Below are positions 1,880-27,665 of a stretch of 45,252 nucleotides of DNA, piece after piece (position 1 is the first letter of the stretch; each line of letters opens with the position of its first letter). Origin of the DNA: Pelagibacteraceae bacterium. GTDB taxonomy: Bacteria > Pseudomonadota > Alphaproteobacteria > Pelagibacterales > Pelagibacteraceae. The notes beneath the pieces are model-generated. The model worked only from the letters and a program-made list of their open reading frames with translations. It had not been told where the DNA came from and did not search any database. The stretch spans positions 1 to 45,252 of the forward strand of contig SHWS01000011.1 of NCBI GenBank assembly GCA_009693705.1. The letters are read 5' to 3'. The position numbers and the translations under genes were made by a program.

Positions 1880-2809
1880 TTAATAACCTCTTGATGGGTT
1901 AATTATGTTAAGAGGACTTTTACCATCAAAATATCTTTTAAAATTGTCTATAAAAAAATAAACTTTATCTTTGGTTTCATCAATATAGCCTCCACCAGTA
2001 TGTTGTGTAAGTATTAAGTTAGGACATGTCCAAAGAGGGTTATTTTTTTTTAAGGGTTCATCAGCAGTAACGTCTAAGATTGCTCCTTTTATAGAATTAT
2101 TTTTAAGCTTTTTAATTAGACATTTTTCATCGATCAAATTTCCTCTTCCAACATTAATCAAAATAGAATTTTTTGATAAATAATTTAAAACTTTAGTGTT
2201 AAATATCTTATTTGTACTTTTAGTACCTGGTAAAGCACAGATAATAATTTCTGCTAGTTTTAATTTATTGAAAAATAAATTATTTTTTGTACGGGAGTCA
2301 ATAAATGAACACTTGCAATTAAATGGTTTAAGATATTTTGCTATTTCTTTATTAATTGATCCTTTTCCCAGAAATAAAATATTCTTATTATTTAAAATTT
2401 CTAATTTTTTTCTTAAGGGTTCGCCGATCCATTTCTTTTCTTTTTTTAATAATGGAAATAAATTTATACCTCTAAAAAAACAAAATATCCCTGCCAACAC
2501 AGTTTGAGCCACTTGTGGTGCAAAAAAACCCTTTAAATTGGTAACAATTATTTTTTTATTTAAAAAATTTCTTTTAACATTTGAGTATTCTGCAAATCCG
2601 GTAGATTCTAATTGAAGCCATTTTATTTTAGGACTCTGTTCTATCCAGTTAGAAGGTATGTTGCCAAATACAATCTCACATTTTAAAAATTTTTCATTTG
2701 GTTTTTGCTTAAAATTTTGATTAGAAAAATATAAAGTATGTTTATTTAAATTACTTTTTATAATTTTTTTTTCTATAGTGTTTAATTCTGTTGCAATAAA
2801 AATATTCAT
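1880..2809 (-). CDS. D-isomer 2-hydroxyacid dehydrogenase (NAD-dependent)
   Basis: Likely interconverts a 2-oxoacid and a D-2-hydroxyacid with NAD(P)H (glyoxylate/hydroxypyruvate reductase-like fold). The nucleotide-binding turn is ILFLGKGSINKEIAKYL (about residue 145). The typical NVGRGNLIDE block carries the substrate Arg, LDVTADEPL the Glu, and TQHTGG the catalytic His. Length 309 is normal. The protein is unusually Lys/Asn/Phe-rich and divergent, so the substrate cannot be named. It begins 14 bases downstream of the dehydratase gene on the same strand and is probably the last gene of that catabolic operon, which suggests reduction or oxidation of a hydroxyacid end product. It is one of three proteins of this family in the window. 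Confidence 0.85.
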   Translation of the reverse strand: MNIFIATELNTIEKKIIKSNLNKHTLYFSNQNFKQKPNEKFLKCEIVFGNIPSNWIEQSPKIKWLQLESTGFAEYSNVKRNFLNKKIIVTNLKGFFAPQVAQTVLAGIFCFFRGINLFPLLKKEKKWIGEPLRKKLEILNNKNILFLGKGSINKEIAKYLKPFNCKCSFIDSRTKNNLFFNKLKLAEIIICALPGTKSTNKIFNTKVLNYLSKNSILINVGRGNLIDEKCLIKKLKNNSIKGAILDVTADEPLKKNNPLWTCPNLILTQHTGGGYIDETKDKVYFFIDNFKRYFDGKSPLNIINPSRGY

Positions 2810-2823
2810 TTAATGATTATAAA

Positions 2824-4023
2824 TCATTCTTTCCAATAATCGTCAATCGGCTGTCCTCTATCAACAACAACACATGAGTAGACTGCTTTTTGATCAAATG
2901 GAAAATTTTTTTCAATTTTATCGTTCATCGTAATACCTATGCCAGATAACTCTGGTCTTCTAAGATGACCATTTTTTATAATTCTTTGATCTTCAAACAT
3001 TATTGGTTCTAATTTGTAAGGTATCATTGGAAACTCAACAAGATTCCCATTGCACCCAAATGCAACATGATAATTTGCCATAATAGCTACTGGTCCACCC
3101 CAAGCATGAACAACTGGAGTAATATTTTTTGTTCTAGCATACAAAAAAACTTCTTTGACAGCATTCATGCCCCCAATAACAGAGGCATCTGGCTGAACAA
3201 AATCATAAATATCTAAATCTATTCTTCGAATCATTTCTAACGGTGTTGTTATTACTTCACCACCGCAAATTTCAATATTAAGATTTTCTTTTAATTTCTT
3301 AAATCCATTTATATCCATTGGACCAACAGCTTCTTCAAGAAATAAAATTTTTTCACTAGTAATATTTTTTACCGCATTGATATAATTTATCACTGATGTT
3401 GCATTAATTGGTGGGTCAGCCAAATTTTGGCACATATCAATAGCAACATCTATTTCGTATTTTCTTGCTTTGTTAAGCACCCATGCTGTTTTATTTATAT
3501 CGTTTGAAACTGATCTAATTTTATATTTTTTAACTCCCAATGATTTTAATAATTCTAATTCTTCAATAAAATGTTCTTTAGTATCACAAATTCCTCCGCT
3601 TCCATAAACTTCAATATTCTGTTTATTACTATTCCCAAATAATTTATATGCTGGACACTTTTGGCTTTTTGATTTTGCGTCTACTAAAGCTATCTCTATT
3701 GCACTAGTGCTATGTCTCGCTGCACCTTGTAAGGACCAATAGTCACAAACACTACATAAATCTTTATATCTTCTTAAAATATCAAATCCATCTTTTCCAA
3801 TGAGGTAGGGCGTGCAAAGTTCAACAATAGATTTAAATACAATTGGTGCAAAAACAGCAAGATAACCTTCGCCATATCCTTTTACTCCATTTTCGAGCGT
3901 TATTTCAACTAAGCCTATAGTTCTTTTTGGTCCATTAGGAAAACATTCTAAAATTTCAGGATGTTTATCATGTCCATAATTTGCACTTAATAAAATTGTT
4001 CTAACGTTTTCAATTTTACTCAT
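2824..4023 (-). CDS. Enolase-superfamily acid-sugar dehydratase/racemase (mandelate racemase/MLE type)
   Basis: Predicted to abstract the alpha-proton of a carboxylate and, most likely, dehydrate a sugar acid to a 2-keto-3-deoxy acid. Seen: an N-terminal capping domain (1-130), then a TIM barrel with KIR (Lys168, Arg170), metal ligands Asp196, Glu230 and Glu256 (AIDM, FLEEA, GGE) and an Asp279/His306 pair (QPDAS, VVHAWGG), the mandelate racemase/sugar-acid dehydratase pattern. Length 399 is normal. Its ATG overlaps the stop of the DapA-type gene by one base (TAATG), so translation is probably coupled. A dehydratase next to a 2-keto-3-deoxy-acid lyase is a standard two-step route. The real substrate cannot be read from sequence and may not be a sugar acid, given the transporter type in the operon. 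Confidence 0.87.
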   Translation of the reverse strand: MSKIENVRTILLSANYGHDKHPEILECFPNGPKRTIGLVEITLENGVKGYGEGYLAVFAPIVFKSIVELCTPYLIGKDGFDILRRYKDLCSVCDYWSLQGAARHSTSAIEIALVDAKSKSQKCPAYKLFGNSNKQNIEVYGSGGICDTKEHFIEELELLKSLGVKKYKIRSVSNDINKTAWVLNKARKYEIDVAIDMCQNLADPPINATSVINYINAVKNITSEKILFLEEAVGPMDINGFKKLKENLNIEICGGEVITTPLEMIRRIDLDIYDFVQPDASVIGGMNAVKEVFLYARTKNITPVVHAWGGPVAIMANYHVAFGCNGNLVEFPMIPYKLEPIMFEDQRIIKNGHLRRPELSGIGITMNDKIEKNFPFDQKAVYSCVVVDRGQPIDDYWKE

Positions 4024-4982
4024 TAAAATTTAAGATGTGGAACTTTAATTTTTTTCATATAATCCAGAGTTCTTTGTCTATATTTTTCTCTAATATCTCT
4101 TGTTGGTGGTCTACATCTACTTGAAGGAAGTCCAACTAATTCCATACAAAGTTTATCTAAATATCCATCTCCAGAGGTATAATTCGTTTCTATCTCAACC
4201 CAGAGTTTATAAAAAGGCATCGCTTCTTCAATCATCATTCTTGCTATTTCTTCAAAGTTTTTATTTTTTACCTCATTAATTAATTTTTTTCCCCACTCAG
4301 GCCAAAAATTACACATATGAACCTCAAAAGCTTTTGCATTTAATGACTTCATAGCCGAATATGGAAAAAATAAATTATTATCAATAATAGTAAATCGTTT
4401 TGAGTAGGTTGAGGTGACGTCTTCAAATTCCATCGCATCTGTTCTAGGTGTTGCCCATTTCAATCCAACTATATTTTTGAGATCTATTATTTTTTCAATT
4501 AATTGATTAGAGACACTGGTTGAGGTCCAAAATGTATTATATATAATTATTCCAACTCCATCAGCAGCAATTGATGCTGTTCTTACATATTCAATAAAAT
4601 CATCTTCAGTGTGCTTAAAGTAAAAAGGACAGGAAACTTGAAGAAAATCATATCCAAAATCTTTAGCAATCCCAGCCAGTTTTTGTAATTCTTGAGTATT
4701 CGTAGTTTGACCACCTAAAGCAATTGGGACTCTGCCATTTACTATTTTTGAACCTGCTTTAGCTAAAGATAATCTTTCTTCAAAACTCATAGCAGAAAAA
4801 TCTCCTGCCGCGCCTCCAAAAAGTATTGTACAATTTTCATTGTTTAAACCGTTGTTTAACAAAAAATCAACATAATCTTTAAGTGCATCAAAGTTAATTG
4901 GTAAATCCTTTGTGTCTTTAAATGGAGTTGGAACAGTTACATAACAACCTTCAAGCCTTATTTTTAATTTTTCGTAATCCAT
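4023..4982 (-). CDS. DapA-family (DHDPS/N-acetylneuraminate lyase superfamily) aldolase or dehydratase
   Basis: Class I Schiff-base enzyme of the DHDPS/NAL superfamily, probably cleaving or dehydrating a 2-keto-3-deoxy acid made by the adjacent enolase-superfamily enzyme. The Schiff-base lysine is Lys175 in VGLKWA and the conserved tyrosine is Tyr148 in IIYNTFW. The carboxylate-binding loop is the unusual GGAAGDFS (57-64) rather than GxxGE, which suggests a substrate different from DapA's. Length 319 is a little longer than DapA (~295). A good Shine-Dalgarno (AGGAG) precedes the ATG. It sits between the permease and the dehydratase in one operon. Alternatives are 5-dehydro-4-deoxyglucarate dehydratase or a KDG-type aldolase; a role in lysine synthesis is unlikely in this context. 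Confidence 0.87.
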   Translation of the reverse strand: MDYEKLKIRLEGCYVTVPTPFKDTKDLPINFDALKDYVDFLLNNGLNNENCTILFGGAAGDFSAMSFEERLSLAKAGSKIVNGRVPIALGGQTTNTQELQKLAGIAKDFGYDFLQVSCPFYFKHTEDDFIEYVRTASIAADGVGIIIYNTFWTSTSVSNQLIEKIIDLKNIVGLKWATPRTDAMEFEDVTSTYSKRFTIIDNNLFFPYSAMKSLNAKAFEVHMCNFWPEWGKKLINEVKNKNFEEIARMMIEEAMPFYKLWVEIETNYTSGDGYLDKLCMELVGLPSSRCRPPTRDIREKYRQRTLDYMKKIKVPHLKF

Positions 4983-4991
4983 AGTTAACTC

Positions 4992-5774
4992 CTATTGTTT
5001 ATTTAATCGTTTCATTGAAATATGCCAGGGCATTAAAATTTTTTCCATTATGGTAACAAAAGCAAAAACTGATAAACCCAAACAAGTTAAGAAAAATATT
5101 CCAGCAAAAGCTAAATCTGGCCTCATATTTCCTGTTACAATAGAAATATAAAATCCAAGTCCTTTGTCTGATCCAATAAATTCTGCAATAGTAGCTCCTA
5201 CGGTTGCGTTAATTCCAGCATATTTAAAACCAACAAAACATTGTGGTAGAGCAGCCGGTAATCTAATTTTAAAAAAAGTTTTTATTCTGCTTGCACCAGT
5301 TGACTGGTAAAATAAAGTAAGTTCATTACTTAGAGAATTAAATGCTAAAATTGCATTTAAAACAATCGGAAAAAAACAAACCAATACAACAATAATTACT
5401 TTTGGCAACAATCCAAAACCAAACCAAGATATAAATAAGGGAGCAAAAGCTATTTTTGGAGTCATTTCAATACTTACAAAGAAAGGGTATAAAGTCCTTC
5501 TTAATATTGATGAAAAAGAAATAGCTATTCCAAATCCCAGACCCAATACTATAGCTATAGTAAATCCAAGAACAGTTTCTAAAGCGGTAATTCCTGTATA
5601 ATAAATTAGTTTATCTAAATCGGCGGAACCTTTTACAAAAATTTGCGAAGGTGGAGGAAGAATATATTTCGGTACATCAAAAAATATGATTGAATATTCC
5701 CAAAATAAAAAAAATCCAATAAAAAATAGAATTACCATCCATCCACTTAAAATCCATTTAATAAATTTTTTCAT
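4992..5774 (-). CDS. ABC transporter permease, NitT/TauT (SsuC/TauC) type
   Basis: Inner-membrane channel subunit of an importer. It has about six hydrophobic segments (roughly 12-33, 60-85, 95-118, 122-145, 185-205 and 222-245). The cytoplasmic EAA loop that docks the ATPase lies near 159-177 (STGASRIKTFFKIRLP), and TIAEFIGSDKGLG near 196 is typical of the SsuC/TauC/ThiX group. Length 260 is normal. It sits eight bases after the ATPase gene and is followed at once by the DapA-type gene. This family normally carries sulfonates, nitrate, pyrimidines or similar small molecules, not sugars, which makes the partnership with an acid-sugar-type dehydratase notable. Confidence 0.92.
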   Translation of the reverse strand: MKKFIKWILSGWMVILFFIGFFLFWEYSIIFFDVPKYILPPPSQIFVKGSADLDKLIYYTGITALETVLGFTIAIVLGLGFGIAISFSSILRRTLYPFFVSIEMTPKIAFAPLFISWFGFGLLPKVIIVVLVCFFPIVLNAILAFNSLSNELTLFYQSTGASRIKTFFKIRLPAALPQCFVGFKYAGINATVGATIAEFIGSDKGLGFYISIVTGNMRPDLAFAGIFFLTCLGLSVFAFVTIMEKILMPWHISMKRLNKQ

Positions 5775-5782
5775 ATAATTAT

Positions 5783-6550
5783 TTAAATAACACCGTATTC
5801 ATGAAAAACTTCTTCAATTGAATTAACATATTCCATAAATTTTGCTGATCTTTTTAATTTTAAATCCCTTGGATAGGGCAGATCAATTTTCATCTCTCTA
5901 TCTATTTTTCCTGGTCTAGGTGTAATTAATATAATTCTACTTGATAATTGAACCGCTTCCTCAATCGAATGAGTGACAAATATTACGGTTGGTTTTTTAA
6001 TCATCCATAATTTTTGAAAATCTGCCCTAATTTTTTCTCTTGTCATCGCATCTAGTTTTCCAAGAGGCTCATCCAGCAAAATTATTTTTGGCTCATGTAT
6101 CATTGCTTGACAAAAAGCTGCTCTTTGCTGCATACCGCCGGATAATTCATTTGGATACCTATGAGCAAAATCCTCTAGATTTACGGATTTCAAAATGTCA
6201 TTTACTTTATCTTCATAATCCTCAAGACTTAGTTTTCTTAACTCTAATTGTAATTCAATATTACCTTTAACTGTTCGCCAAGGCACCAATGTGTTGTTTT
6301 GAAACATTATCCCAATATCTGTTTTAGGTCCTTCTACTAATTTATTTTCAAATTCTACTTTTCCGCTAGTGGACTCTAATAACCCAGCTATAATTAACAT
6401 TAATGTTGATTTTCCACATCCAGATGGTCCTAAAATTGTTACAAATTCCCCAATATTAATATCAACAGATAAAGGACCAAAAGCATGAACCGTTTCAGAT
6501 CCATTTTCAAATATTTTTTTTAAATTTGTTACCTGTATTAATTTTGCCAT
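5783..6550 (-). CDS. ABC transporter ATP-binding protein, NitT/TauT (SsuB/TauB) type
   Basis: Cytoplasmic motor of the importer. Walker A GPSGCGKST is at 41-49, the Q-loop MFQNNTLVPWRTV near 82-94, the signature ELSGGMQQR at 135-143, Walker B IILLDEP at 156-162 and the switch His in FVTHSIEEA. The PWRTV and LGKLDAMTR wording is typical of the SsuB/TauB/ThiZ group. Length 255 is normal. The gene starts 60 bases downstream of the binding-protein gene, past a perfect hairpin, and is followed closely by the permease, so the three form one transporter. Confidence 0.94.
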   Translation of the reverse strand: MAKLIQVTNLKKIFENGSETVHAFGPLSVDINIGEFVTILGPSGCGKSTLMLIIAGLLESTSGKVEFENKLVEGPKTDIGIMFQNNTLVPWRTVKGNIELQLELRKLSLEDYEDKVNDILKSVNLEDFAHRYPNELSGGMQQRAAFCQAMIHEPKIILLDEPLGKLDAMTREKIRADFQKLWMIKKPTVIFVTHSIEEAVQLSSRIILITPRPGKIDREMKIDLPYPRDLKLKRSAKFMEYVNSIEEVFHEYGVI

Positions 6551-6564
6551 TTTAAGGATTTAAC

Positions 6565-6593
6565 CTAGTCGAATATTTTTTATATTCGACTAG
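6565..6593 (-). promoter_or_regulatory. Perfect 12-bp intercistronic hairpin after the binding-protein gene
   Basis: A 12-base arm (6565-6576) and its exact complement (6582-6593) flank a five-base loop, between the stop of the periplasmic binding-protein gene and the start of its ATPase. There is no strong T-run after it on the minus strand, so it fits an mRNA-stabilising or partial-termination hairpin that lets the binding protein be made in excess over the membrane parts. Confidence 0.75.
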
Positions 6594-6610
6594 ATTTTAA
6601 TTTATTAAGA

Positions 6611-7609
6611 TTATTTTATGAATTCATTTGTATAAAAGTCAGATGCCTTAGCATTTTTATCTAAGTCATTATATTCTTTCATCAAATTAACCATACTTTC
6701 CCAATCAGATTCAACGTTTAAACCGAGAACTTTTTTCTTGTTTGCTTTAGAATATAGTATTCCTAAAGTGACATCTAAAACTTCTCTTGATTGAGCTTTT
6801 CCAGCATCTTCATTCATAGAACCACCAACGATATCACCAATTGCATTTACCGCTGCGTCTGGATTTTTTTCTGCATTAGCATAAGACTCAATAGTTGCTT
6901 TCATAAATCTTTTTGCTAAATCAGGATTATCTTTGATCATGTCATTATGTGTTACTATACAATATCCAACCTGATCAACTCCAAAATCAGAGTAAGGAAA
7001 TGCTATAGGTTGAGCACCGCCATTTGCTTTTATCTCAGCAGGTTTATCATCAAGACCACCTAAAATCCCTACGGCACCACCACTCGCTTGCAGGTAACTT
7101 GAAACAAGCGCACCATCTGGAACATTTGTTATATTAACATCTGATTCACTTAATCCAGCGTTTTTTAAAACAATTGGGAAAAAGGTATTAACACCGGCAT
7201 TTGATGTAGTTAATATTTTTTTTCCTTTCAAATCTTTAATTGTTTTAACTCCACTATCTGGTCTTACAAGAACTGCTTCAGTTCCCATAGCATCAATTAC
7301 TCCAATTGATTTTAGTGGCGCTCCTTCAGAAACGAGTTTAGTCATCGAACCGCATGAACCATAAGAAAAGTGACTGTCTTTATTTGCCACTAATCTATGT
7401 GCAGATCCTGAACCGTTTCCTGATCTAATATCTAAATCGATACCATATTTTGCATAAGTCCCATCTACAAACCCTAATGCAAAACCAGCATGTGATCCAT
7501 AGTACATCCAGTTCAATCTTAGCTTAACTTTATCTGCCGCATAAGAAGCTGAAGATGTAATTAAAAAAATAATTGCAAATTTGCAAAAATTATTAAAAAG
7601 TTTCATCAT
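6611..7609 (-). CDS. ABC transporter substrate-binding protein, NMT1/THI5-like (SsuA/TauA/ThiY family)
   Basis: Periplasmic receptor of the NitT/TauT-type importer. Residues 1-24 form a signal peptide ending SASYA before ADKV. The mature part begins KLRLNWMYYGSHAGFALGFVDG and has KYGIDLDI, typical of NMT1/SsuA-like proteins. The later GVKTIKDLKGKKILTTS block is the usual mid-domain motif. Length 332 is normal. There are two tandem ATGs; the first has AAGGA five bases upstream and is preferred. First gene of the minus-strand operon, reading away from the AraC-type regulator, and probably controlled from the shared intergenic region. The ligand is unknown: ThiY-like pyrimidine, a sulfonate, or a carboxylate matching the downstream enzymes are all possible. 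Confidence 0.93.
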   Translation of the reverse strand: MMKLFNNFCKFAIIFLITSSASYAADKVKLRLNWMYYGSHAGFALGFVDGTYAKYGIDLDIRSGNGSGSAHRLVANKDSHFSYGSCGSMTKLVSEGAPLKSIGVIDAMGTEAVLVRPDSGVKTIKDLKGKKILTTSNAGVNTFFPIVLKNAGLSESDVNITNVPDGALVSSYLQASGGAVGILGGLDDKPAEIKANGGAQPIAFPYSDFGVDQVGYCIVTHNDMIKDNPDLAKRFMKATIESYANAEKNPDAAVNAIGDIVGGSMNEDAGKAQSREVLDVTLGILYSKANKKKVLGLNVESDWESMVNLMKEYNDLDKNAKASDFYTNEFIK

Positions 7610-7680
7610 TTTGTTCCTTTATATTTGTTTGTTAAAAAAATATATTCTCAAGAATTTTTGTTAAATAAACTATTTAATTC

Positions 7681-7770
7681 GACATATTGTTAATATTAAT
7701 AGACATTATATTAATTGAGGTATTACAATATTAATCGTAATATATTGTCATTATTTAATTAAATAATGTC
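7681..7770. promoter_or_regulatory. Candidate AraC-family operators: two direct-repeat pairs in mirrored orientation
   Basis: The 193-base gap between the divergent binding-protein and AraC-type genes holds GACAt/a boxes. On the plus strand they start at 7681 and 7702. On the minus strand they start at 7770 and 7749. Each pair is 21 bases apart, two helical turns, the usual geometry for tandem AraC half-sites, and the outer box of each pair is CGACAT. A perfect 20-base A/T palindrome (7749-7768) overlaps the second pair. One pair would serve each divergent promoter. Confidence 0.55.
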
Positions 7771-7802
7771 GTTATTAATTAACTTTTTTTAAAAAATTAA
7801 TT

Positions 7803-8780
7803 ATGGAAAATAAAACTGTTAGTTTTGATATTTTTTTAGAACCAGAGTTCCCTGTAAACTCACTAATCTTAATTCAAGAAGCATTAAGAATATCAAACCA
7901 ATATAGAATTAATGAAATTTTTAAAATTAAACTTATAACTACTGATGGTAAAAGAATTAGGTCAAGCAATGGTCAGTGGTGGAAAGTTGACGCTGGACTA
8001 GAAGGGATTAAAAATCCAGATTTTATAGTTGTTTTAGGTGGTAACTTACCAGTGCAAAAAAAATCAAAAAAATTATTTTCTATTTTGCGAGTAGCGCATA
8101 AAAATTTATCAAAAATAATTGCAATAGACACAGGAGCTTTTCTTTTAGCAGAAGCTGGTTTAATAACCAATGATACTGTTGTCTGCGTTCATTGGGAAGT
8201 AAAAAATAATTTTTTAGAAAAATATTCAAATATTAAAATTGTGGATGATATTTATACAATTAATCGAAATGGCTTAATATTTGGAGCTGGCGGTATATCA
8301 ACTTTAGATCTAATTTTAGAGTGCATTAGCACTGTAAAAGGAAAAGATTATGCCAATGAAATAGCTCAAGCATTGATTTATCGACCAAGAGAAAATAGTA
8401 CCAATCAAAAAGATGAGTTATTTGAATTGTCTCTTGATAATATTTGTAAAAAAGCAATTCAAATCATGGAAAAAAATATAGAGGTACCATTAAAGATAAA
8501 CGAAATTTCAAAAAAATTAAATGTTTCTTTAAGAACATTAGAACGTAAATTTTATAAAATGTATAAAATTTCTCCTATTAAATTTTATGTTAACCTAAGA
8601 GTAAAATTTGCTAGAAACCTACTTTTTTATGATGATCGTAAAATTAATGAAATATCAAGTATGGCTGGATTTAACTATAATTCTGTTTTTATAAATTCTT
8701 TCAAAAAAATTTACAACAAAACGCCCTCAGAGTATAGAAAGTATTTTAGAAATCAGCAGTTTGATAATAGTATTTTTTAA
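7803..8780 (+). CDS. AraC-family activator with DJ-1/PfpI-like (GlxA/GbdR type) sensor domain
   Basis: DNA-binding regulator. The N-terminal half (about 5-195) is the glutamine-amidotransferase-like domain of GlxA/CdhR/GbdR regulators, with FIVVLGG at 74-80 and AIDTGAFLLAEAGL at 107-120. The nucleophile-elbow position is Asp109 rather than Cys, so it is a ligand sensor, not an enzyme. The C-terminal part (about 225-320) is the AraC double helix-turn-helix: VSLRTLERKFYK and the second helix pair ending SVFINSFKKIYNKTPSEYRK. Length 325 is normal. It diverges from the NitT/TauT-type operon and most likely activates it. GbdR/CdhR relatives sense glycine betaine or carnitine breakdown products, so a quaternary amine or related amino compound is a possible inducer, but this is only a hint. 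Confidence 0.9.
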   Translation: MENKTVSFDIFLEPEFPVNSLILIQEALRISNQYRINEIFKIKLITTDGKRIRSSNGQWWKVDAGLEGIKNPDFIVVLGGNLPVQKKSKKLFSILRVAHKNLSKIIAIDTGAFLLAEAGLITNDTVVCVHWEVKNNFLEKYSNIKIVDDIYTINRNGLIFGAGGISTLDLILECISTVKGKDYANEIAQALIYRPRENSTNQKDELFELSLDNICKKAIQIMEKNIEVPLKINEISKKLNVSLRTLERKFYKMYKISPIKFYVNLRVKFARNLLFYDDRKINEISSMAGFNYNSVFINSFKKIYNKTPSEYRKYFRNQQFDNSIF

Positions 8781-8793
8781 AATAAATTTAAAT

Positions 8794-9756
8794 TTATCCA
8801 GGTGTATAAATCCTATTTGCTTCTGGATCGTCACTTGAAAAAGGAAGTTTTAAAACCTCAGCCCAGAATTCATTTGAGATTTTAGCTTTAGCCCAAGCTA
8901 GATTTTTTTCTATACTATCAATGCTTGTCACCCCGCATATTGTAGATGATATTCTTTTGTCTCTTAATGAGAATTGAAGTGCAGCAGCGCCTATATCAAC
9001 GTTATGTTTTTTACAAATTTTTTCTATTTCTTTAACTGGTCTTAACATTTCCTCTGTTACATCTTGATAAGTAATTTTTTTAAAATTACTTGGGCCTTTC
9101 GCCAAAACTCCGCCAGCATAAGGAGCGGCATTAAAAATTGCAATTTTTTTGTTATAAGCGTAATCAAATAATTTATCTGCCTCTCTGTTTAGTAGCGTAA
9201 ATCTATTATGACTAATCAGAGCATCAAAGTCCCAATTTTTTAGCAAAGGAAACATGATATTGATTTTACCCATCGCTACTCCAACGGCTTTAGCTAATCC
9301 TTCCTCTTTTATTTTAAATAGTTCGTCCATTGCTCCGTTTTTTTTAGTAATCTCAGAAATATCCTTTGCATATTCTGGGTCATGTAAAAATAAAATATCA
9401 ACAGAGTCGACCCCTAAAGCTTCTAAACTTTCTTCAAGTGATTTTCTTGCTTGATTTTTATCGAACTTCAAAGTGTTCATATCTCTATCTAATTTAGTAG
9501 ATAAAACGAATTTGTCTGGCCATTTACCATTATCTTTTATAGCTCTACCTATTCTTTTTTCACTTTCTCCTGAAGCATAATTTCTAGATGTATCAAGCAT
9601 ATTCACTGGACCTTGAAAAAATCTTTTTAGGGTTTTTTGAGCTCGATCTTCAGAAACTTCATATCCATAAGTATCTGGCATACTACCTAAACTAGAAGTT
9701 CCAAAGCTTATTTCTGTTACTTCTAAACCAGTATTTTTAATCTTATTTTTTTTCAT
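8794..9756 (-). CDS. Aldo/keto reductase, probable aldose (L-fucose/D-threo-aldose) 1-dehydrogenase
   Basis: NAD(P)-dependent oxidoreductase of the aldo/keto reductase superfamily. The catalytic tetrad is Asp55 (MLDTSRNY), Tyr60, Lys88 (LSTKLD) and His125 (LFLHDPEY). The ASGESEKRIGRAI stretch resembles the D-threo-aldose 1-dehydrogenase subgroup, which oxidises L-fucose and similar sugars to the lactone. Length 320 is normal. Its stop faces the AraC gene 14 bases away. Directly upstream is a COG3618 lactonase, the expected next enzyme for a lactone product, so aldose oxidation fits better than carbonyl reduction. Confidence 0.85.
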   Translation of the reverse strand: MKKNKIKNTGLEVTEISFGTSSLGSMPDTYGYEVSEDRAQKTLKRFFQGPVNMLDTSRNYASGESEKRIGRAIKDNGKWPDKFVLSTKLDRDMNTLKFDKNQARKSLEESLEALGVDSVDILFLHDPEYAKDISEITKKNGAMDELFKIKEEGLAKAVGVAMGKINIMFPLLKNWDFDALISHNRFTLLNREADKLFDYAYNKKIAIFNAAPYAGGVLAKGPSNFKKITYQDVTEEMLRPVKEIEKICKKHNVDIGAAALQFSLRDKRISSTICGVTSIDSIEKNLAWAKAKISNEFWAEVLKLPFSSDDPEANRIYTPG

Positions 9757-9759
9757 AAA

Positions 9760-10602
9760 TTAAATTTTCAGTTTATAAAAATTAATAACATTATTATAAA
9801 ATATATTTCGTTTTTGAGTTAAATTCAATTTATTAGTAAGATTGGTGGCAGTATTAAACCAACCAGCGTAGTTAGTTCGTAATTTACAAACAGGCCAATC
9901 AGAACCCCAAAGTATTCTTTCATCAGTAAATGCCTTTAAAATTTCATCTGAGTAGGGTTTTAAATCTTTTTCAGTCCAATTTTTGCAGGCCTCCGTAACC
10001 ATTCCTGAAAACTTGCAATAAACATTGTCTAATTTAGATAATTTATTTATGCCAATCTTCCAATACTGAAAATCCTTTTTGTTATTTTTGCATATTTTTG
10101 GTTTCATTAAGTGATCAATTACAAAACGCAATGAAGGATATTTGGATGCAATAAAATAGAAATTGTCAAGATGAATTGGAAAACCTAGTGCATCAAAAGA
10201 TAAATCTAACTTTATTATAGTTTTAAAAAAAATATCAAAATTTTTATTCAATACCCAGTTTGGATCAGGAATATCTTGTATCATTGGTCTTACACCAACA
10301 AATTTTTTATTTTTTGCAAATATTTTTAATTGCTTTAATTGATTAATGTCTTCAAAATTCACCCAGCCAACAACACCAGCAACTAAACTTGATTTATCAG
10401 CGATATCAAGCATGTATGCTGTCTCAGCATTTGTTGCGGCAGCTTGTACTAAAATTGTTTTATGTAATTTAATTGATTTTGACTCTTTAATTAAATCTTT
10501 AACAGCATATTTTTTTGTTAGGATTTTATCATTTTTGGGCATCCAGGAATAGTCACCTCTGCTAGGATCCCAGAAGTGTTGATGTGAATCAATGATTTTC
10601 AT
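9760..10602 (-). CDS. Amidohydrolase-family lactonase (COG3618; L-fuconolactonase-like)
   Basis: TIM-barrel metal-dependent hydrolase predicted to open a sugar 1,4- or 1,5-lactone to the aldonic acid. It begins IIDSHQHFWDP, with the His7/His9 metal pair and the FWDP wording typical of fuconolactonase and rhamnonolactonase. FVIDHLMKP and the late ILWGSDWPVCKL block carry the other conserved His and Asp. Length 280 is normal. It is three bases from the aldo/keto reductase and 24 bases from an SDR, all on one strand, which supports an aldose to lactone to aldonate sequence. It could equally act on a dicarboxylate lactone (PDC hydrolase branch). Confidence 0.86.
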   Translation of the reverse strand: MKIIDSHQHFWDPSRGDYSWMPKNDKILTKKYAVKDLIKESKSIKLHKTILVQAAATNAETAYMLDIADKSSLVAGVVGWVNFEDINQLKQLKIFAKNKKFVGVRPMIQDIPDPNWVLNKNFDIFFKTIIKLDLSFDALGFPIHLDNFYFIASKYPSLRFVIDHLMKPKICKNNKKDFQYWKIGINKLSKLDNVYCKFSGMVTEACKNWTEKDLKPYSDEILKAFTDERILWGSDWPVCKLRTNYAGWFNTATNLTNKLNLTQKRNIFYNNVINFYKLKI

Positions 10603-11559: not shown

Positions 11560-12564
11560 TTAACCAGCAATACAAGTTTTAATGTTTTGTGGCGTACAAA
11601 CATCAAGACCTGTGTAGATTGCTTTTAAAGAATCATTGTCAAACTTTAATGGTTTTTTATCAACGATATCTTTAAGAACGAGCATAGATTTGTAACCCAT
11701 CATAAAAGGCTGTTGACCTACTTGTCCATGTGTTCTTCCAGCAGCTAAATCTTCCATCTGCATTGGTAAAGTATCAGCAATTACTACTACTGTTTTTTGA
11801 GAACTTATTCTATCTTTGTGTTTTTCAGCAAGATCTCTAAATGCTTTTGAAACGAACTGAGGAAAACCACCAGTTGGAACGAAAGCAGTTAAATCTGGAT
11901 GTTTTGCAAAAATATCATCCATTTGTTGAACAGAAAGTGGGAAGTCGTCATTAGTGTAAAGTGGACATCCAGCAGCTTCTTTCCATCCATTTTCACCATT
12001 CAATGCTTCGCTTGGATATTTTCCACCATCAGCACGTCCTGCAATTGTGTCTCTAATGCCTGACATTCTTTCATTGTGGTTTGCAGCAGAAGCTCCGCCT
12101 GATTGGATACAAATTTCGCCACCTTTAGGTTTTAATTCCATAACGATTTTGGCAAGATTAACTCCAATATCATAGTTTTTAGTTCCAACGTAAGCACTTC
12201 TTAAACCAGCATCTTCATTTAAAAGATCAGAGTCCCAAGTAACAACAGGGATTTTAGTACCTTTTAAAATTTTGGCCATAGCTGCTGCGTTAGATGATGC
12301 TACTGCAATTCCATCCACACCTTTAGCAATTAAATCTTGAACTATTTGAAGTTGTTCTTGTTCAGTATGTTCACCTGGACCAATATATAAGCACTCAATT
12401 CCTCCAATTTCTTTCTCAGCTTTTTTACAACCATCTCTTGCTAAATCAAAAAATGGATTGTTCATAGATTTAGGTACCAATGCGAATACTAAATTTTTCG
12501 CATAAGATATACTTGAAATAGAAACGAAAAGAAAAGTTAACAACGTAATCATTAATTTATTCAT
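11560..12564 (-). CDS. Sugar ABC transporter substrate-binding protein (RbsB/periplasmic-binding 4 family)
   Basis: Periplasmic receptor for a monosaccharide or cyclitol. The signal peptide is residues 1-22, ending ISYA before KNLVFAL. The mature fold shows ALVPKSMNNPFFDLARDGCKKAE, IQDLIAKGVDGIAVASSN and VVTWDSD, the type I ribose/inositol-binding pattern, and an extra loop near 175-200 with Cys pairs that may be disulphides. Length 334 is normal. A Shine-Dalgarno GGAG lies eight bases upstream. It is separated by 154 bases from the permease, enough for its own promoter, and is followed by a strong hairpin. Because an IolG-type dehydrogenase heads the same operon, inositol or a related polyol is a plausible ligand, but this is inference. 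Confidence 0.92.
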   Translation of the reverse strand: MNKLMITLLTFLFVSISSISYAKNLVFALVPKSMNNPFFDLARDGCKKAEKEIGGIECLYIGPGEHTEQEQLQIVQDLIAKGVDGIAVASSNAAAMAKILKGTKIPVVTWDSDLLNEDAGLRSAYVGTKNYDIGVNLAKIVMELKPKGGEICIQSGGASAANHNERMSGIRDTIAGRADGGKYPSEALNGENGWKEAAGCPLYTNDDFPLSVQQMDDIFAKHPDLTAFVPTGGFPQFVSKAFRDLAEKHKDRISSQKTVVVIADTLPMQMEDLAAGRTHGQVGQQPFMMGYKSMLVLKDIVDKKPLKFDNDSLKAIYTGLDVCTPQNIKTCIAG

Positions 12565-12718
12565 TTTTTTCTCCAGTTATTTTATTTAAAAATATTTTAA
12601 AAAATATTTTTTAAGTTTAATATTTAAGCATACAATAATAAACCTAGCAAATAATAAACCGAACATTTCAACTGCAGGTTGTTTTTTTTGTTTAATATAT
12701 GTCCGTAGATAAAATTTT

Positions 12719-13750
12719 TTAATTATTTTTTTTATTTTTTACTTTTTCTAACCAGACGGCAGCAACAATAAATATTCCTAAAAAAGTACCTTGCCAGTTT
12801 GGATCAATCCCAGCCATCAATAAACTGTTTCTAATTGTTTCCATTAAAGCTGCCCCAATAAAAGCTCCGTATGTTCCTCCGACACCTCCCATTAGATTGG
12901 CTCCACCAATAACACTGGCAGCAATAACTCTTAGTTCATAAGTATATCCAAGTCCGTTAGTTACAGAACCCATCCAACTAACAATCATCACAGCAGATAT
13001 TGCGGCAAAAAAACCGCTGAGCATGTAAACTGACATTTCTATCCATCTGATATTAATTCCAGCTAGTTCTGCAGCTTTTTTATTACTTCCTACCGCATAA
13101 ACATGTTTTCCATAAGTTGTATAATTTAAAACTAGTCCCATTAATATTGTTAAAAATATTAATAACCAAGTAATATTTGCCAATCCTAAAAATTGTCCAC
13201 CTCCAAGTTTAAAAAACATTTCATCTTTAGGTCCAAATTCATAAAACATTTTATTGTTTGATACTACGATTGCTAAACTTCTTGCAATCGCCATCATACC
13301 CAAAGTCACTACAAAAGAAGATAGATTTAAATAGGCAATCAAGTATCCATTCACCGCTCCTATTATTATTCCAGCTATAAGAGCAAATACGATTCCAACC
13401 CAAACATAATTGCTCTCGTAGAAGGCAGATTTAGAATACCATTCAGGTAAATATTGTGCATCTAGAAATAAACCACAAATTATTCCAGTCAAGCCCATAA
13501 TAGAACCAACCGAAAGATCAATGCCGGAAGTAATTATAACTAAAGTCATACTAATGGCCATGATCCCGATAAAAGAAAAGTTTCTTGCTATATTGTAGAC
13601 ATTGTCTTTACTTGAGAAAGCTTCTTCTACAAAATACATTACAAAACAAATTAATATTAAAGCAATAGTAACCCAAAAAGATTGTTCTGATAAAAATTTT
13701 TGAAAAGATGTTTTTTCAGATTTTGATATTATATCTTTATTAAATTTCAT
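12719..13750 (-). CDS. Sugar ABC transporter permease (RbsC/FrcC family)
   Basis: Inner-membrane subunit of the ribose/fructose-type importer (branched-chain/ribose permease family). It has around nine to ten hydrophobic segments, the GIDLSVGSIMGLTG motif after the second one, and GKHVYAVGSNKKAAELAGIN, the conserved cytoplasmic loop that contacts the ATPase. The C-terminal VIGGANLMGGVGGTYGAFIGA block is also typical. Length 343 is normal. It lies four bases after the ATPase gene and upstream of the binding protein, so ATPase, permease and binding protein form one transporter. Confidence 0.94.
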   Translation of the reverse strand: MKFNKDIISKSEKTSFQKFLSEQSFWVTIALILICFVMYFVEEAFSSKDNVYNIARNFSFIGIMAISMTLVIITSGIDLSVGSIMGLTGIICGLFLDAQYLPEWYSKSAFYESNYVWVGIVFALIAGIIIGAVNGYLIAYLNLSSFVVTLGMMAIARSLAIVVSNNKMFYEFGPKDEMFFKLGGGQFLGLANITWLLIFLTILMGLVLNYTTYGKHVYAVGSNKKAAELAGINIRWIEMSVYMLSGFFAAISAVMIVSWMGSVTNGLGYTYELRVIAASVIGGANLMGGVGGTYGAFIGAALMETIRNSLLMAGIDPNWQGTFLGIFIVAAVWLEKVKNKKNN

Positions 13751-13754
13751 TTAC

Positions 13755-14495
13755 TTATACTCTATCTATCGCACCAGTTATAAGTCCTGTTGCTTCTTCG
13801 GTTGAAGAATGTTTAATTAATTTATCACACACTTTTTCTCCTCTTCTTAAAACTACAAGTTTGTCACAAACTTGAAATATATCTGGCATTCGATGACTTA
13901 TTAAGAGTACAGAAATTCCATTATCCTTCAATCTTTTAATAAGGTCTAAAACTTCAACAACCTGTCTGACACTGATCGCGGCTGTAGGCTCATCCATTAA
14001 CACTAATTTTGGGTTTGTAAGCCTAGTTCTTGCAATAGCCACAGCCTGCCTTTGTCCACCTGACATTTGCATAACTAAATCTTTCGGTCGAGTTTCTGAT
14101 TTTAATTCTTCAAATAGTTCTGCTGATTTTTTAAACATAGAAGGATAGTCTAAATATCTAAAAGGCCAAATTCCCTTATTTATTTCTCTTCCTAAAAAAA
14201 CATTTGCAGCGGCTGTTAAATGATTACATAGAGCTAAATCTTGATAAACAACTTCAATACCAGCTTCTCTTGATTCAATAGGTTTTTCAAAATGAACTTC
14301 TTGATCTTCAAATTTAATTACACCAGAGGAAGGATTAAAATTTCCTGCAATAATTTTTAATAAAGTAGATTTACCAGCGCCATTATCACCCATTAATCCA
14401 ACAATTTCCGCTTCTTTAATATTAAAACTAACATCTACAATTGCCTGAATAGCTCCAAAATTTTTTGCTATGTTTTGAAGGGATAAAATAGTCAT
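13755..14495 (-). CDS. Sugar ABC transporter ATPase, single-domain (FrcA-like)
   Basis: Energises the adjoining RbsC-type permease. Walker A GDNGAGKST near 36-44, signature QMSGGQRQAVAIAR and Walker B LVLMDEPTAAISVRQ. At 246 residues it has a single nucleotide-binding domain, whereas RbsA/XylG/MglA-type ATPases are fused doubles of ~500 residues, so it must work as a homodimer, as in FrcA of rhizobia. Its ATG overlaps the stop of the IolG-type gene by one base (TAATG), giving coupled translation. The same half-size design occurs in the second sugar transporter of this window. Confidence 0.93.
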   Translation of the reverse strand: MTILSLQNIAKNFGAIQAIVDVSFNIKEAEIVGLMGDNGAGKSTLLKIIAGNFNPSSGVIKFEDQEVHFEKPIESREAGIEVVYQDLALCNHLTAAANVFLGREINKGIWPFRYLDYPSMFKKSAELFEELKSETRPKDLVMQMSGGQRQAVAIARTRLTNPKLVLMDEPTAAISVRQVVEVLDLIKRLKDNGISVLLISHRMPDIFQVCDKLVVLRRGEKVCDKLIKHSSTEEATGLITGAIDRV

Positions 14496-15499
14496 TAATT
14501 GAAATTTATATCAATTGTTTTTCGGCTTTCTAATGACTGATAAGCTGCATTTGCTATTATTAATGCATTCCTTCCGTCTTCAAATGTTACTTTTGGTTTT
14601 GTTTTATTTTTAATACTTTCCATAAAAGCATTAAATTGATCTTTGTAAGCTTGCTCATATCTTTCAATAAAAAAGAAGTGAATAGGGTCTTGAGCATTAG
14701 TTTTATATTTATCAAAAATTTTTATCGAGTTAGGAATTTGATTATCAGAAATAATCATTCCTTTACTACCGAATACTTCAACCCTCTGATCATAACCATA
14801 TACTGCTCTCCTTGAATTATTAACATGAATCAAAACCCCAGATTTAGATCTCATAATGAACATAGCTGTATCAAGATCTTTTGTTTTTTTTGCATTTTCA
14901 TCAAATAAAGCATCTCCAAAAGCAGATATTTGAATTATTGGATCATCTCCTAAAATAAATCTAGATAAATCAAAATCATGTATGGTCGTGTCTCTAAAAA
15001 ATCCCCCTGCAGCTTTTAGATATTCAATACCTGGAGGTTCAGGATCTCGACTTGTAATTATTAACATCTCCAATTCACCTATTTCTTTGTTTACCCTTGC
15101 TTGCTGAGCTTTAGCGTGACTTTTATCAAATCTTCTATTAAAACCTATTTGCAAGGGAACATTAATTCCTTTTATTTCCTCCATACATTGGTTCACTTTA
15201 CCAATATCTAAATCTATAGGTTTCTCACAAAAAATAGCTTTACCTGCTTTTGCGGCCATGGTTATAAACCTTGTATGAGTAGGCGTTGCTGATGCAATAA
15301 GTACTGCATCCACTTCACTAGAAGTGATTGCTTCCTCAGGAGATTTAGCAACTTTTGAATTGTTTGCTTTCGCTACCTGTTCAGAGAAACCCGTGTTTGT
15401 GTCGAAGACATATTTTAAACTTGATCCTGGATGAGAGTTAATTATTGCAGCATGCATTTTACCAATTCTTCCTGCGCCCATCAACGCAAATTTAATCAT
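14495..15499 (-). CDS. iolG: Inositol 2-dehydrogenase-like oxidoreductase (Gfo/Idh/MocA, IolG type)
   Basis: NAD-dependent oxidation of myo-inositol (or a close cyclitol) to the inosose, the first step of inositol breakdown. GAGRIGKMH at 8-16 binds NAD. CEKPIDL holds catalytic Lys93, and FFRDTTIHDFDLSRFIL carries Asp170 and His174 in the pattern of IolG. RRAVYGYDQRVEVFG and FFIERYEQAY further match the IolG subgroup. Length 334 is normal. It is first in an operon with the sugar ABC transporter and faces the plus-strand UxaA-type gene across 311 bases. IolE and IolD lie nearby, which supports the inositol assignment over a general sugar dehydrogenase. Confidence 0.85.
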   Translation of the reverse strand: MIKFALMGAGRIGKMHAAIINSHPGSSLKYVFDTNTGFSEQVAKANNSKVAKSPEEAITSSEVDAVLIASATPTHTRFITMAAKAGKAIFCEKPIDLDIGKVNQCMEEIKGINVPLQIGFNRRFDKSHAKAQQARVNKEIGELEMLIITSRDPEPPGIEYLKAAGGFFRDTTIHDFDLSRFILGDDPIIQISAFGDALFDENAKKTKDLDTAMFIMRSKSGVLIHVNNSRRAVYGYDQRVEVFGSKGMIISDNQIPNSIKIFDKYKTNAQDPIHFFFIERYEQAYKDQFNAFMESIKNKTKPKVTFEDGRNALIIANAAYQSLESRKTIDINFN

Positions 15500-15810
15500 T
15501 AGCTATAATTATAGAATTGATAATTTAAAATCAAGCTAGAAATAAGCCCTACAAATTTAAAGGTTTTATAACAAAAAAAATTTGATTAATGCTTATTGAG
15601 ATTTTAATCGAATAAAAACTATATCACTTAAGTATATCGTTCTATTTAATTTCTCTTAAAAACGGCATTGGAACACCAGATCTTAAGACTATTAAATTAC
15701 TATAGAGTTCATATTTTTTTAATTATTCCTTTTTATGCCAATTAGTATGTAATTCGAGTAAATAAAAATATTGATTAACTTTATAAATGGAATAATTTTC
15801 TATTTAAATC
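15500..15810. promoter_or_regulatory. Divergent 311-base intergenic region
   Basis: Lies between the minus-strand iolG operon and the plus-strand UxaA-type gene, so it should hold both promoters. It is A/T-rich with no clear large palindrome or T-run terminator. The one coding-like piece inside is a short minus-strand scrap at 15642-15722. Nothing else is recognised. Confidence 0.5.
15642..15722 (-). pseudogene. Possible C-terminal remnant of an unidentified gene
   Basis: A 26-codon open stretch on the minus strand without a start codon at its head ends in a normal stop and reads LRSGVPMPFLREIK at its C-terminus, more protein-like and GC-richer than the surrounding spacer. It could be the tail of a gene lost by deletion. 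The parent family is not recognised and chance is a real alternative. Confidence 0.2.
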
Positions 15811-25765: not shown

Positions 25766-26515
25766 ATGAACACTTCAAATAAAATAATTTTAGAGGCTAA
25801 AAACATTTCAAAATACTTTGGTACTATTACCGCATTAGAAAATGTTAATTTAAAAGTTAGAGAAGGAGAATGTCTTGGTGTTGTAGGTGATAATGGAGCA
25901 GGAAAATCAACTTTAATGAAGATACTTTCAGGTCTTTATAAACCCAGTAAAGGTGAGATGTATTTTTATGGAAAACGAGAAGTTTTAGAAAGTCCAAGAG
26001 ATTCTCAAAATTTGGGTCTAGAAATGGTATATCAAGATCTCGCTCTAGCGGGTAATTTACCAATTGGAGAAAATATTTTTCTTGGTCGTGAACCAACAAA
26101 AAGCTTTGGTTTTTTAAAATTATTAGATTACAAGAAAATTAAAGAATTGTCAGAAGCCCATTTAGACAAGTTAAAAATCCATGTAAAAAGTTCTGATCAA
26201 AAAGTTGAAGAGCTATCTGGAGGTCAAAGACAAGCCATAGCTATAGCCAGAGCAACAGCTTTTAATTCAAAATTAGTGATTATGGATGAGCCAACAGCAG
26301 CTCTAGCAATTAAAGAGGTAAGTAAAGTTTTAGATCTTATTAATGGACTAAAAAAAATTGGGGTTAGTGTAATTATCATAAGTCACAGAATGGACGATAT
26401 TTTTGCCGTTTGCGATCGTATAACTGCTCTTTTCCAAGGTACAAACTTTGCAGAGTCTGAATTATCAAAAACTTCTAAAGACGAAGTTATTGGTTGGATT
26501 ATGGGTAAAAAATAA
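25766..26515 (+). CDS. Sugar ABC transporter ATPase, single-domain (FrcA-like)
   Basis: Motor subunit of the second sugar importer. Walker A GDNGAGKST (about 40-48), signature ELSGGQRQAIAIAR, Walker B LVIMDEPTAAL and IISHRMDDIFAVCDR with the switch His. It is 249 residues and one domain only, so it works as a homodimer, unlike the double RbsA. Very similar in wording to the ATPase at 13755-14495, which suggests an old duplication of the transporter type. Followed after two bases by the permease gene. Confidence 0.94.
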   Translation: MNTSNKIILEAKNISKYFGTITALENVNLKVREGECLGVVGDNGAGKSTLMKILSGLYKPSKGEMYFYGKREVLESPRDSQNLGLEMVYQDLALAGNLPIGENIFLGREPTKSFGFLKLLDYKKIKELSEAHLDKLKIHVKSSDQKVEELSGGQRQAIAIARATAFNSKLVIMDEPTAALAIKEVSKVLDLINGLKKIGVSVIIISHRMDDIFAVCDRITALFQGTNFAESELSKTSKDEVIGWIMGKK

Positions 26516-26517
26516 AT

Positions 26518-27531: not shown

Positions 27532-27665
27532 TTTATTTTTTGTATTTCAACTTATAATTGATAACTAATTTTTTTTAATGAATTCATTTAAGAGTTGTTT
27601 TTTATTGTTAAATATTATTAATAACAGTGTTTAAAGTTGTTATAAAAATCAAAAAAGGAAAAATA

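Follow-up and report, generated by a model that had tools for sequence, protein, structure and literature searches.

The question raised by positions 1880–8780 of a 45,252-nucleotide stretch of Pelagibacteraceae DNA (contig SHWS01000011.1 of GenBank assembly GCA_009693705.1; the whole stretch is called the window here) is what a NitT/TauT-type importer carries when its genes are joined to those of sugar-acid enzymes. An earlier note, made from the sequence, had described such an importer in one operon with an enolase-superfamily dehydratase, a DapA-type lyase and a probable hydroxyacid dehydrogenase, opposite a regulator. All seven open reading frames (ORFs) that it listed are intact; six lie on the minus strand (1880–7609), no more than 60 bases apart, base 4023 being common to the end of the lyase gene and the start of the dehydratase gene, and the regulator gene lies divergently on the plus strand (7803–8780). 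In order of transcription, and with Pfam assignments made at the gathering cut-off, the six encode a periplasmic NMT1/THI5-type substrate-binding protein (SBP; 6611–7609; NMT1, PF09084, E 9e-31), the ATPase (5783–6550; ABC_tran, PF00005) and permease (4992–5774; BPD_transp_1, PF00528) of an ATP-binding cassette (ABC) importer, a class I lyase of the DapA/NAL superfamily (LYA; 4023–4982; DHDPS, PF00701), an enolase-superfamily acid-sugar dehydratase (ENO; 2824–4023; MR_MLE_N, PF02746, and MR_MLE_C, PF13378) and a D-isomer-specific 2-hydroxyacid dehydrogenase (HDH; 1880–2809; 2-Hacid_dh_C, PF02826, E 4e-35), the last now a firm family assignment. We put at about one half the probability that this operon is an aldonate catabolic unit of the non-phosphorylative Route I type.

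Conserved residues indicate that the three enzymes all look active. In ENO, whose N- and C-terminal domains both score above the gathering cut-off, K168, R170, D196, E230, E231, E256, D279 and H306 are invariant in 50 of 50 aligned rows. The hallmarks of mandelate-racemase-type enzymes are Asp, Glu and Glu as metal ligands, a Lys motif on the second strand and a His-Asp dyad; the K168-x-R170 of ENO is a KxR in place of the commoner KxK. Y148 and K175 of LYA are invariant in 70/70 rows, and R222, E251 and H270 of HDH in 41/41 (window included). We take these invariant residues to be the catalytic residues of the respective families. Both the ENO and the LYA rows include three repeats, namely locus L001, a second entry of the window itself, and L002 and L003, apparently the same contigs as L048 and L036 (L and G numbers are our own labels for loci and genomes). 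ENO is thus of the acid-sugar type that had been proposed, and it reaches no NCBIfam cut-off.

The atypical carboxylate loop noticed earlier in LYA is real. GGAAGDFS occupies residues 56–63, where the canonical loop of the DapA/NAL superfamily is GxxGE with Ser/Thr, and the identity of positions 57–63 (GAAGDFS) in all 70 rows marks it as a signature of the family, which rules out a sequencing error. Two further stretches, RTDAMEFED (180–188) and SRCR/PTRD (288–296), are invariant in a 44-sequence alignment. The TIM-barrel DHDPS domain with its Schiff-base Lys (K175) and catalytic Tyr (Y148) is present, and an AlphaFold2 model (predicted local distance difference test score, pLDDT, 90.4) superimposes with Z ∼34 on many DHDPS-family structures. 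In the PDB fold ranking DHDPS, YagE and KdgD are tied at Z 34.6, 34.3 and 34.0, and the Foldseek list contains this superfamily alone. NCBIfam profiles are equally undiscriminating: dapA gives 70.5 bits (cut-off 206), HpaI-NOT-DapA 63, NAL-type 61, KdgD 60 (374) and nanA 45 (382), no equivalog cut-off being reached, and the best PDB sequence relatives reach only 63 bits. Neither LYA nor ENO has a match at 1e-30 among 72,556 plasmid records; at 1e-6 LYA matches 436 of them, and the 50 listed give no substrate clue because all are at most 32% identical. By these comparisons LYA forms a separate subfamily of the DapA superfamily with a distinct invariant active-site signature.

The importer is complete, with all three components of an NMT1/NitT-TauT system, as had been proposed. 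None of the models listed by NCBIfam for the SBP and the permease (best for the latter SaoP, TauC and SsuC), nor the 25 best shown for the ATPase, reaches its cut-off. For the SBP the SsuA family gives 71.6 bits (cut-off 163.5) and the taurine model 41.6 (304), and among the plasmid records a single match is found at 1e-40, with 35% identity. The cargoes named in the earlier note for this importer family were sulfonates, nitrate and pyrimidines. In a structure model (pLDDT 91.0) the SBP fold lies closest to FAMP-binding (Z 34.9), thiamin-binding (32.7) and Thi5-type (30.8) proteins, followed by SsuA (26.2) and TauA (25.2), which favours the pyrimidine and thiamin binders in that list over the sulfonate binders; the modelled fold thus speaks against a plain sulfonate importer, without naming the ligand. 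Three-component layout, Pfam families and SBP fold are all as in the NitT/TauT (NMT1/THI5) importers of thiamin precursor, taurine, alkanesulfonate and nitrate, whereas the genes linked to this importer are those of sugar-acid enzymes and not of sulfonate, nitrate or thiamin metabolism.

Linkage of importer and enzymes recurs in other genomes. Among 297 genomes of the SAR11 order, LYA is found at high identity in three, the window's own SAR11-type genome (G000), G096 and G130, and the remaining matches, spread over 228 genomes, are DapA relatives with E 4e-19 or weaker. The same three genomes alone contain the SBP and, likewise, ENO (E ≤ 1e-60), a grouping far beyond chance. An even sample of 385 genomes from the class yields LYA and ENO once each (E ≤ 1e-60), in the window's own genome. 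One genome per species was scanned by pattern, an approach that finds only loci sharing an exact short peptide; this gave 69 loci, of which L099 (archaeal, 24% identity) was dropped before all counts. In the remaining 68 LYA is 55–90% identical; most belong to Alphaproteobacteria (SAR11, Mesorhizobium, roseobacters, Rhodospirillales) and a few to Gammaproteobacteria, while SAR324, Proteobacteria and Pirellulales each appear in the title of one record, and the closest named relatives are mostly titled Pelagibacteraceae or Pelagibacter. Neighbours were counted among mechanically called ORFs within 8.5 kb of LYA, with thresholds and distances set by hand after viewing the neighbour table. On this count the SBP is near LYA in 53/68 loci and ENO in 48/68, which bears out the expected transporter–enzyme linkage. 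We conclude that the module is real, rare and patchily distributed, and made of known kinds of enzyme. The substrate had been called unassigned, and the collections searched hold no characterised close relative. In the contig titled SAR324 (L040, 2–13565), LYA, ENO, permease and SBP are 83–88% identical to those of the window, an identity that makes this copy a recent transfer or a case of mis-binning; downstream of it lie a GMC oxidoreductase (Pfam) and genes that we presume to encode an Eda-type aldolase and a DgoK kinase.

The clearest variation among the loci concerns the dehydratase, which is replaced by proteins of the unrelated UxaA/GarD type. ENO is present in 48 of the 68 loci, UxaA/GarD in 13, neither in seven and both in none; where both flanks span at least 7.5 kb (39 loci) the figures are 29, nine, one (L097) and none. 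A Fisher test of this exclusion gives 2e-9 for the 68 loci and 4e-5 when each of 36 clusters (85% identity) contributes a single locus, values that are inflated because the LYA tree needs only two changes of dehydratase type, an independent-pairs test having one to two pairs. The exclusion holds in every counted locus, yet stems from few events. The corresponding minimum is three changes for the type of 2-hydroxyacid dehydrogenase and eight for presence of the NMT1 importer, on a tree and alignment from which L052 and L094 were omitted for too little coverage. L050 and L053, which carry a UxaA/Ldh_2 pair, group with Mesorhizobium loci carrying an ENO/HDH pair, in a group of 10 with 91% Shimodaira–Hasegawa-like approximate likelihood ratio support (SH-aLRT). 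In L096, scored as ENO, a stretch ∼10 kb off matches the GarD-like protein over 50 residues, below the length filter.

The dehydrogenase is replaced too. HDH is near LYA in 43/68 loci and the unrelated Ldh_2 protein (LDH2, PF02615) in 15, with both in one and neither in 11, so that a 2-hydroxyacid dehydrogenase of either family is near in 57/68 loci, and in 33 of the 39 fully flanked ones. L087 and L088 were scored without LDH2 at 8.5 kb though it is present at ∼9.3 kb in both. The replacements go together, ENO being paired with HDH in 42/48 loci and UxaA/GarD with Ldh_2 in 10/13. Plasmid relatives of HDH are D-2-hydroxyacid dehydrogenases and their kin, at most 33% identical among the 25 rows listed. 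A conserved aldehyde dehydrogenase (ALDHa) is a further partner, near LYA in 32/68 loci (36 within 10.5 kb), and dehydratase, 2-hydroxyacid dehydrogenase and ALDHa all lie within 8.5 kb in 20 of the 39 fully flanked loci. In the window's genome an ALDHa relative (60% identical) is on another contig (G000:C44:61901–63358). In G130 the operon sits at the site that matches this one, between a presumed VOC-like gene and ALDHa. The G000 copy was considered as the relic of a moved operon, an idea dropped in part, ALDHa being present in four of 12 sampled SAR11 genomes without the operon; the site in G130 may simply be the operon's insertion point.

The transporter varies as well. An NMT1 SBP alone is found in 40 of the 68 loci, a Ugp-type ABC system together with NMT1 in 13, Ugp-type without an NMT1 SBP in 10 and neither in five. 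In L096 (Ruegeria lacuscaerulensis) the gene order is LYA, DctP, DctQ, DctM, ALDHa, ENO, a tripartite ATP-independent periplasmic (TRAP) transporter replacing the NMT1 importer. The DctP, DctQ and DctM labels are putative, that of DctP being borne out by PDB sequence comparison, in which it is closest to 4pe3 and next to lactate-binding proteins (2zzv, 7e9y). The suggestion that the importer belongs to the catabolic route therefore stands as regards linkage to NMT1, and not as regards a unique tie. Since NMT1, TRAP and Ugp-type importers interchange, the cargo is likely to be an organic acid suited to transport by several importer types. In L109 (G130; 12491–17036), L034, L048, L062 and L098 the contig that carries the operon also has a TRAP transporter near ALDHa, its DctP ∼70% identical between SAR11 and Labrenzia/Roseibium; it is possibly an alternative importer of a related acid. 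Sialidase-like BNR proteins (PF13088) were seen near LYA in L043–L047, L050, L053, L054, L059, L060, L063, L064, L069, L071, L074, L083, L086–L088, L093 and L095, mostly accompanied by a Ugp-type ABC system and a second aldehyde dehydrogenase.

A pathway can be proposed from these parts. The NMT1-type importer would take up a sugar acid; ENO would dehydrate the aldonate to a 2-keto-3-deoxy acid; LYA, through a Schiff base on K175, would split this into pyruvate and a short hydroxyaldehyde; an aldehyde dehydrogenase, whose gene many relatives have within the operon and the window's genome has elsewhere, would oxidise the aldehyde to a 2-hydroxyacid, which HDH would convert to a 2-keto acid; and the divergent DJ-1/AraC protein would turn the operon on. 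Gene content, linkage, conserved residues and replacements are the observations from which we infer the order of steps, aldol cleavage over dehydration/decarboxylation, the regulation and the substrate. Route I fits because a lyase that yields a hydroxyaldehyde needs both an aldehyde dehydrogenase and a 2-hydroxyacid dehydrogenase.

The products of Route I are pyruvate and a hydroxyaldehyde, and the predicted dehydratase of the Campylobacter jejuni pathway is of the UxaA type. In the available text of PMC6946681 a DapA homologue and a dehydratase are among the products of the fuc operon of C. jejuni, and the Route I pathway for L-fucose and D-arabinose proposed there is called identical to one of Sulfolobus solfataricus. 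The present operon shares with fuc, as far as that text describes it, an aldonate dehydratase, a DapA-superfamily lyase and dehydrogenases; in contrast, the sugar itself is taken up in C. jejuni by transporters of the major facilitator superfamily (FucP), whereas here the importer is of the NMT1 type and the operon has no sugar dehydrogenase, its dehydratase is enolase-type, a 2-hydroxyacid dehydrogenase is added and LYA belongs to a separate subfamily.

Clues to the substrate come from sugar genes in the window and around the replacement dehydratases. Adjoining the regulator are an aldo/keto reductase (8794–9756, minus strand; PF00248), whose best five PDB sequences are all L-galactose dehydrogenases, and an amidohydrolase-family lactonase (9760–10602, minus strand; PF04909), which scores 178 bits against the L-fucono-1,5-lactonase model (cut-off 400). 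These may catalyse the upstream steps from aldose to aldonolactone and from lactone to aldonate, and could so make such an aldonate from a sugar. A full-length UxaA/GarD-family protein (15811–17316, plus strand; TIGR03248, the galactarate dehydratase model, 376 bits, cut-off 731) is a possible second aldonate dehydratase and is 48–55% identical to the proteins that substitute for ENO in L084, L086–L088 and L095. In L069, the genes for LYA, the large UxaA subunit and Ldh_2 precede relatives (66%, 55% and 43% identical) of the first ribose-type ABC set in the window and of the window's Gfo/Idh-type gene.

Plasmid relatives of the split UxaA lie in fucose-type clusters. The large subunit was found at seven places at 54–60% identity, of which four were examined (two without annotation). 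In Sphingomonas parapaucimobilis it (59% identical) shares one run with fucP, a short-chain dehydrogenase/reductase (SDR), an amidohydrolase and an aldo/keto reductase, and an L-rhamnose mutarotase lies close to this L-fucose cluster. In Ponticoccus alexandrii the cluster has an amidohydrolase, a Ugp-type ABC system, a mandelate-racemase-family protein, an L-rhamnose mutarotase, an SDR and a protein of the fumarylacetoacetate-hydrolase kind. The genes after split UxaA in Caballeronia sp. SBC1 encode an aldo/keto reductase (26%) and a lactonase that shares 40% identity with that of the window. For the full-length type one of 25 listed plasmid places was examined, and for the lactonase two of 20 listed, in addition to the one in Caballeronia. 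In Azospirillum sp. B510 a full-length relative adjoins uxaC and a gene for a sugar kinase, and others occur in two Rhodobacterales clusters with a ribose-type ABC system, an aldo/keto reductase, an RbsD/FucU-type protein and an amidohydrolase. To these Azospirillum and Rhodobacterales relatives the window's GarD-like protein is 48–55% identical; its lactonase is 39–40% identical to the amidohydrolase-family proteins of the two Rhodobacterales clusters and 21–25% to those of Sphingomonas and Ponticoccus, and the plasmid-cluster identities are 45% for its RbsD-like protein, 25–29% for its aldo/keto reductase and 28–37% for its ABC genes. According to the accessible text of PMC6336799, D-arabinonate, L-fuconate, D-altronate and L-galactonate have the same configuration at C2–C4, and the enzymes known to dehydrate D-arabinonate include members of the enolase superfamily as well as of the UxaA/GarD superfamily. 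The exchange of one superfamily for the other in the dehydratase role, together with the fucose and altronate clusters in which relatives of the substitutes lie, suggests that the substrate is probably of the L-fuconate/D-arabinonate configuration, shared at C2–C4 with L-galactonate and D-altronate. The earlier note had neither ALDHa as a partner, nor the UxaA/GarD replacement, nor the adjoining fucose-type genes, and it is these that narrow the likely substrate.

Several points weigh against this reading. The functions of all operon members rest on sequence comparison and structure models, and by fold and by profile LYA is about equally distant from the aldolases and the dehydratases of its superfamily. 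The best PDB match of ENO is a galactonate-dehydratase entry (114 bits), not L-fuconate dehydratase. The exclusion of ENO by UxaA/GarD rests on as few as those two changes on the tree, and the window itself has ENO and the GarD-like gene 11.8 kb apart, beyond the counting distance. ALDHa scores highest with PuuC/KauB types and not with lactaldehyde dehydrogenases, and its presence in the four operon-free genomes means that it is no dedicated partner in SAR11. The window's aldo/keto reductase and lactonase were undetected near the operon in the available flanks of 14 SAR11-clade loci, the split-UxaA context is that of the four places out of seven, and one of these, in Rhizobium sp. 11515TR (L121), shows no lactonase relative.

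Known operons for hexarates and pentonates by Route II (glucarate/galactarate, L-arabinonate, L-lyxonate) combine an enolase- or GarD-type dehydratase, a DapA-type enzyme and an aldehyde dehydrogenase with a transporter in one unit, the composition seen here, so LYA could instead be a 2-keto-3-deoxy acid dehydratase of the KdgD or L-KDP dehydratase type, forming α-ketoglutarate semialdehyde that ALDHa would oxidise to α-ketoglutarate, with a pentonate or hexarate as substrate and HDH as an accessory. L-KDP dehydratase is itself a DapA-superfamily member in the text available of PMC6336799, KdgD structures score as high as any against the LYA fold (Z 34.0), and the window's GarD-like protein matches the galactarate dehydratase model. 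We nevertheless consider this unlikely, since aldol cleavage is favoured by the 2-hydroxyacid dehydrogenase near LYA in 57/68 loci, for which Route II has no step, and by the lower score of ALDHa against GucD (365 bits) than against PuuC (507) and BADH (468); the KdgD model, at 60 bits for a cut-off of 374, and the GucD model are both far from being reached. Rather less probable is the scavenging of a 3-deoxy-2-ulosonate (Kdo-, KDN- or DHA-like) on which LYA, as a member of the NAL superfamily, would act first, the freed aldose being oxidised to an aldonate and dehydrated by ENO or UxaA/GarD. BNR proteins, which would release the ulosonate, lie within 8.5 kb of LYA in 20/68 loci, and in L087 and L088 they stand with a Ugp-type ABC system between LYA and the GarD-like dehydratase, in the same gene run; they keep conserved Arg, Glu and Tyr positions which, mapped by eye, we take to be of the kind used by sialidases. 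In its fullest and similarly improbable form, the Ugp-type system would import glycosides, the BNR proteins free the ulosonate and the NMT1 system import the free acid, the half that SAR11 would keep; LYA would then split off pyruvate, the aldose passing to the aldehyde dehydrogenase and on to ENO or UxaA/GarD, with algal walls, plant pectin and lipopolysaccharide as sources. No BNR match is seen, however, in the window, in the available flanks of the 14 SAR11-clade loci or in the window's own genome (a scan without positive control), the dehydrated product requires an extra step with no assigned gene, and LYA scores 45 bits against the NanA model (cut-off 382).

A sulfonated substrate, either a sulfo-sugar acid or sulfolactate, with the UxaA pair acting as SuyAB and LDH2/HDH as sulfolactate dehydrogenases, draws on the sulfonate branch of the importer family, on the SsuA family as best NCBIfam model of the SBP (72 bits) and on the 143 bits of LDH2 against the L-sulfolactate dehydrogenase model. 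SuyAB is moreover described in the text available of PMC6336799 as the heteromeric UxaA/GarD-superfamily member, and the UxaA of the variant loci is split. We regard it as a poor candidate, behind the ulosonates: the SBP fold is nearer to pyrimidine and thiamin binders (34.9, 32.7) than to SsuA and TauA (26.2, 25.2), the SBP and LDH2 profile scores are far below their cut-offs, LDH2 scores higher with the malate/lactate/ureidoglycolate model (164 bits), split UxaA relatives sit in fucose-type clusters, and the UxaA types were not found with ENO in the 68 loci, though a sulfo-pathway needs a dehydratase as well as SuyAB. The least probable of the alternatives is a substrate of another kind, such as an acid sugar that carries a heterocycle or an amine, as the SBP fold ranking, the GbdR model that scores best with the regulator and the PuuC and BADH models that score best with ALDHa might hint; the shared neighbour families, inspected by eye without a scan, include no recognised deaminase or nitrogen gene, and TRAP or Ugp-type systems replace the importer in some loci.

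The regulator (PF12833, HTH_18, and PF01965, DJ-1_PfpI) has the DJ-1 plus AraC architecture of the GbdR/GlxA-like activator that had been predicted, whereas its assignment to GbdR itself is not supported, its best NCBIfam score being 170 bits with that model for a cut-off of 480. In the divergent intergenic region (7610–7802) an inverted pair of half sites, CGACA (7680–7684) and TGTCG (7767–7771), is kept in 10/10 aligned regions (window and nine loci), and is a candidate operator (7680–7771).

If the aldonate reading is true, the NMT1/NitT-TauT importer family gains a new cargo class, sugar acids, and about one in 100 of the SAR11-order genomes sampled (3/297) a sugar-acid niche that bears on ocean carbon. 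The LYA subfamily adds a distinct invariant signature and has no close relative among the PDB entries and plasmids searched, and a single module whose dehydratase, 2-hydroxyacid dehydrogenase and transporter all have unrelated substitutes allows the substrate to be narrowed without experiment. The searches made found no sugar-acid assignment for the importer family or the LYA subfamily, nor, in titles and abstract openings, any naming of the operon; subscription papers lay mostly outside the search, and an earlier description is possible. We take tarD, D-tartrate dehydratase, to be an enolase-superfamily enzyme, so that an automated pipeline might label ENO in this way. Coastal SAR11 are reported, in the main text available of PMC12636525, to have L-fucose/D-arabinose/L-xylose genes including fucB, and tarD; the window resembles them in its fuconolactonase-like gene and sugar ABC systems, and that main text contains neither 'mandelate racemase' nor 'dihydrodipicolinate', its available passages making no mention of the NMT1 operon or of an enolase/DapA pair.

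Beyond the regulator, the window continues as a long sugar-catabolism run (8794–34628) that includes two ribose-type ABC sets (11560–14495 and 25766–28589). Its other genes are presumably Gfo/Idh-type, GarD-like, HpaI/GarL-like, RbsD-like and mutarotase-like genes, kinases and SDRs, some of these names resting on profile scans. Beyond the HDH end of the operon lie genes that we take, from their sequences, to be moaA-like (832–1824) and moaC-like (275–826), and relatives of these, 74% and 85% identical, are found near the operon in L036 too.

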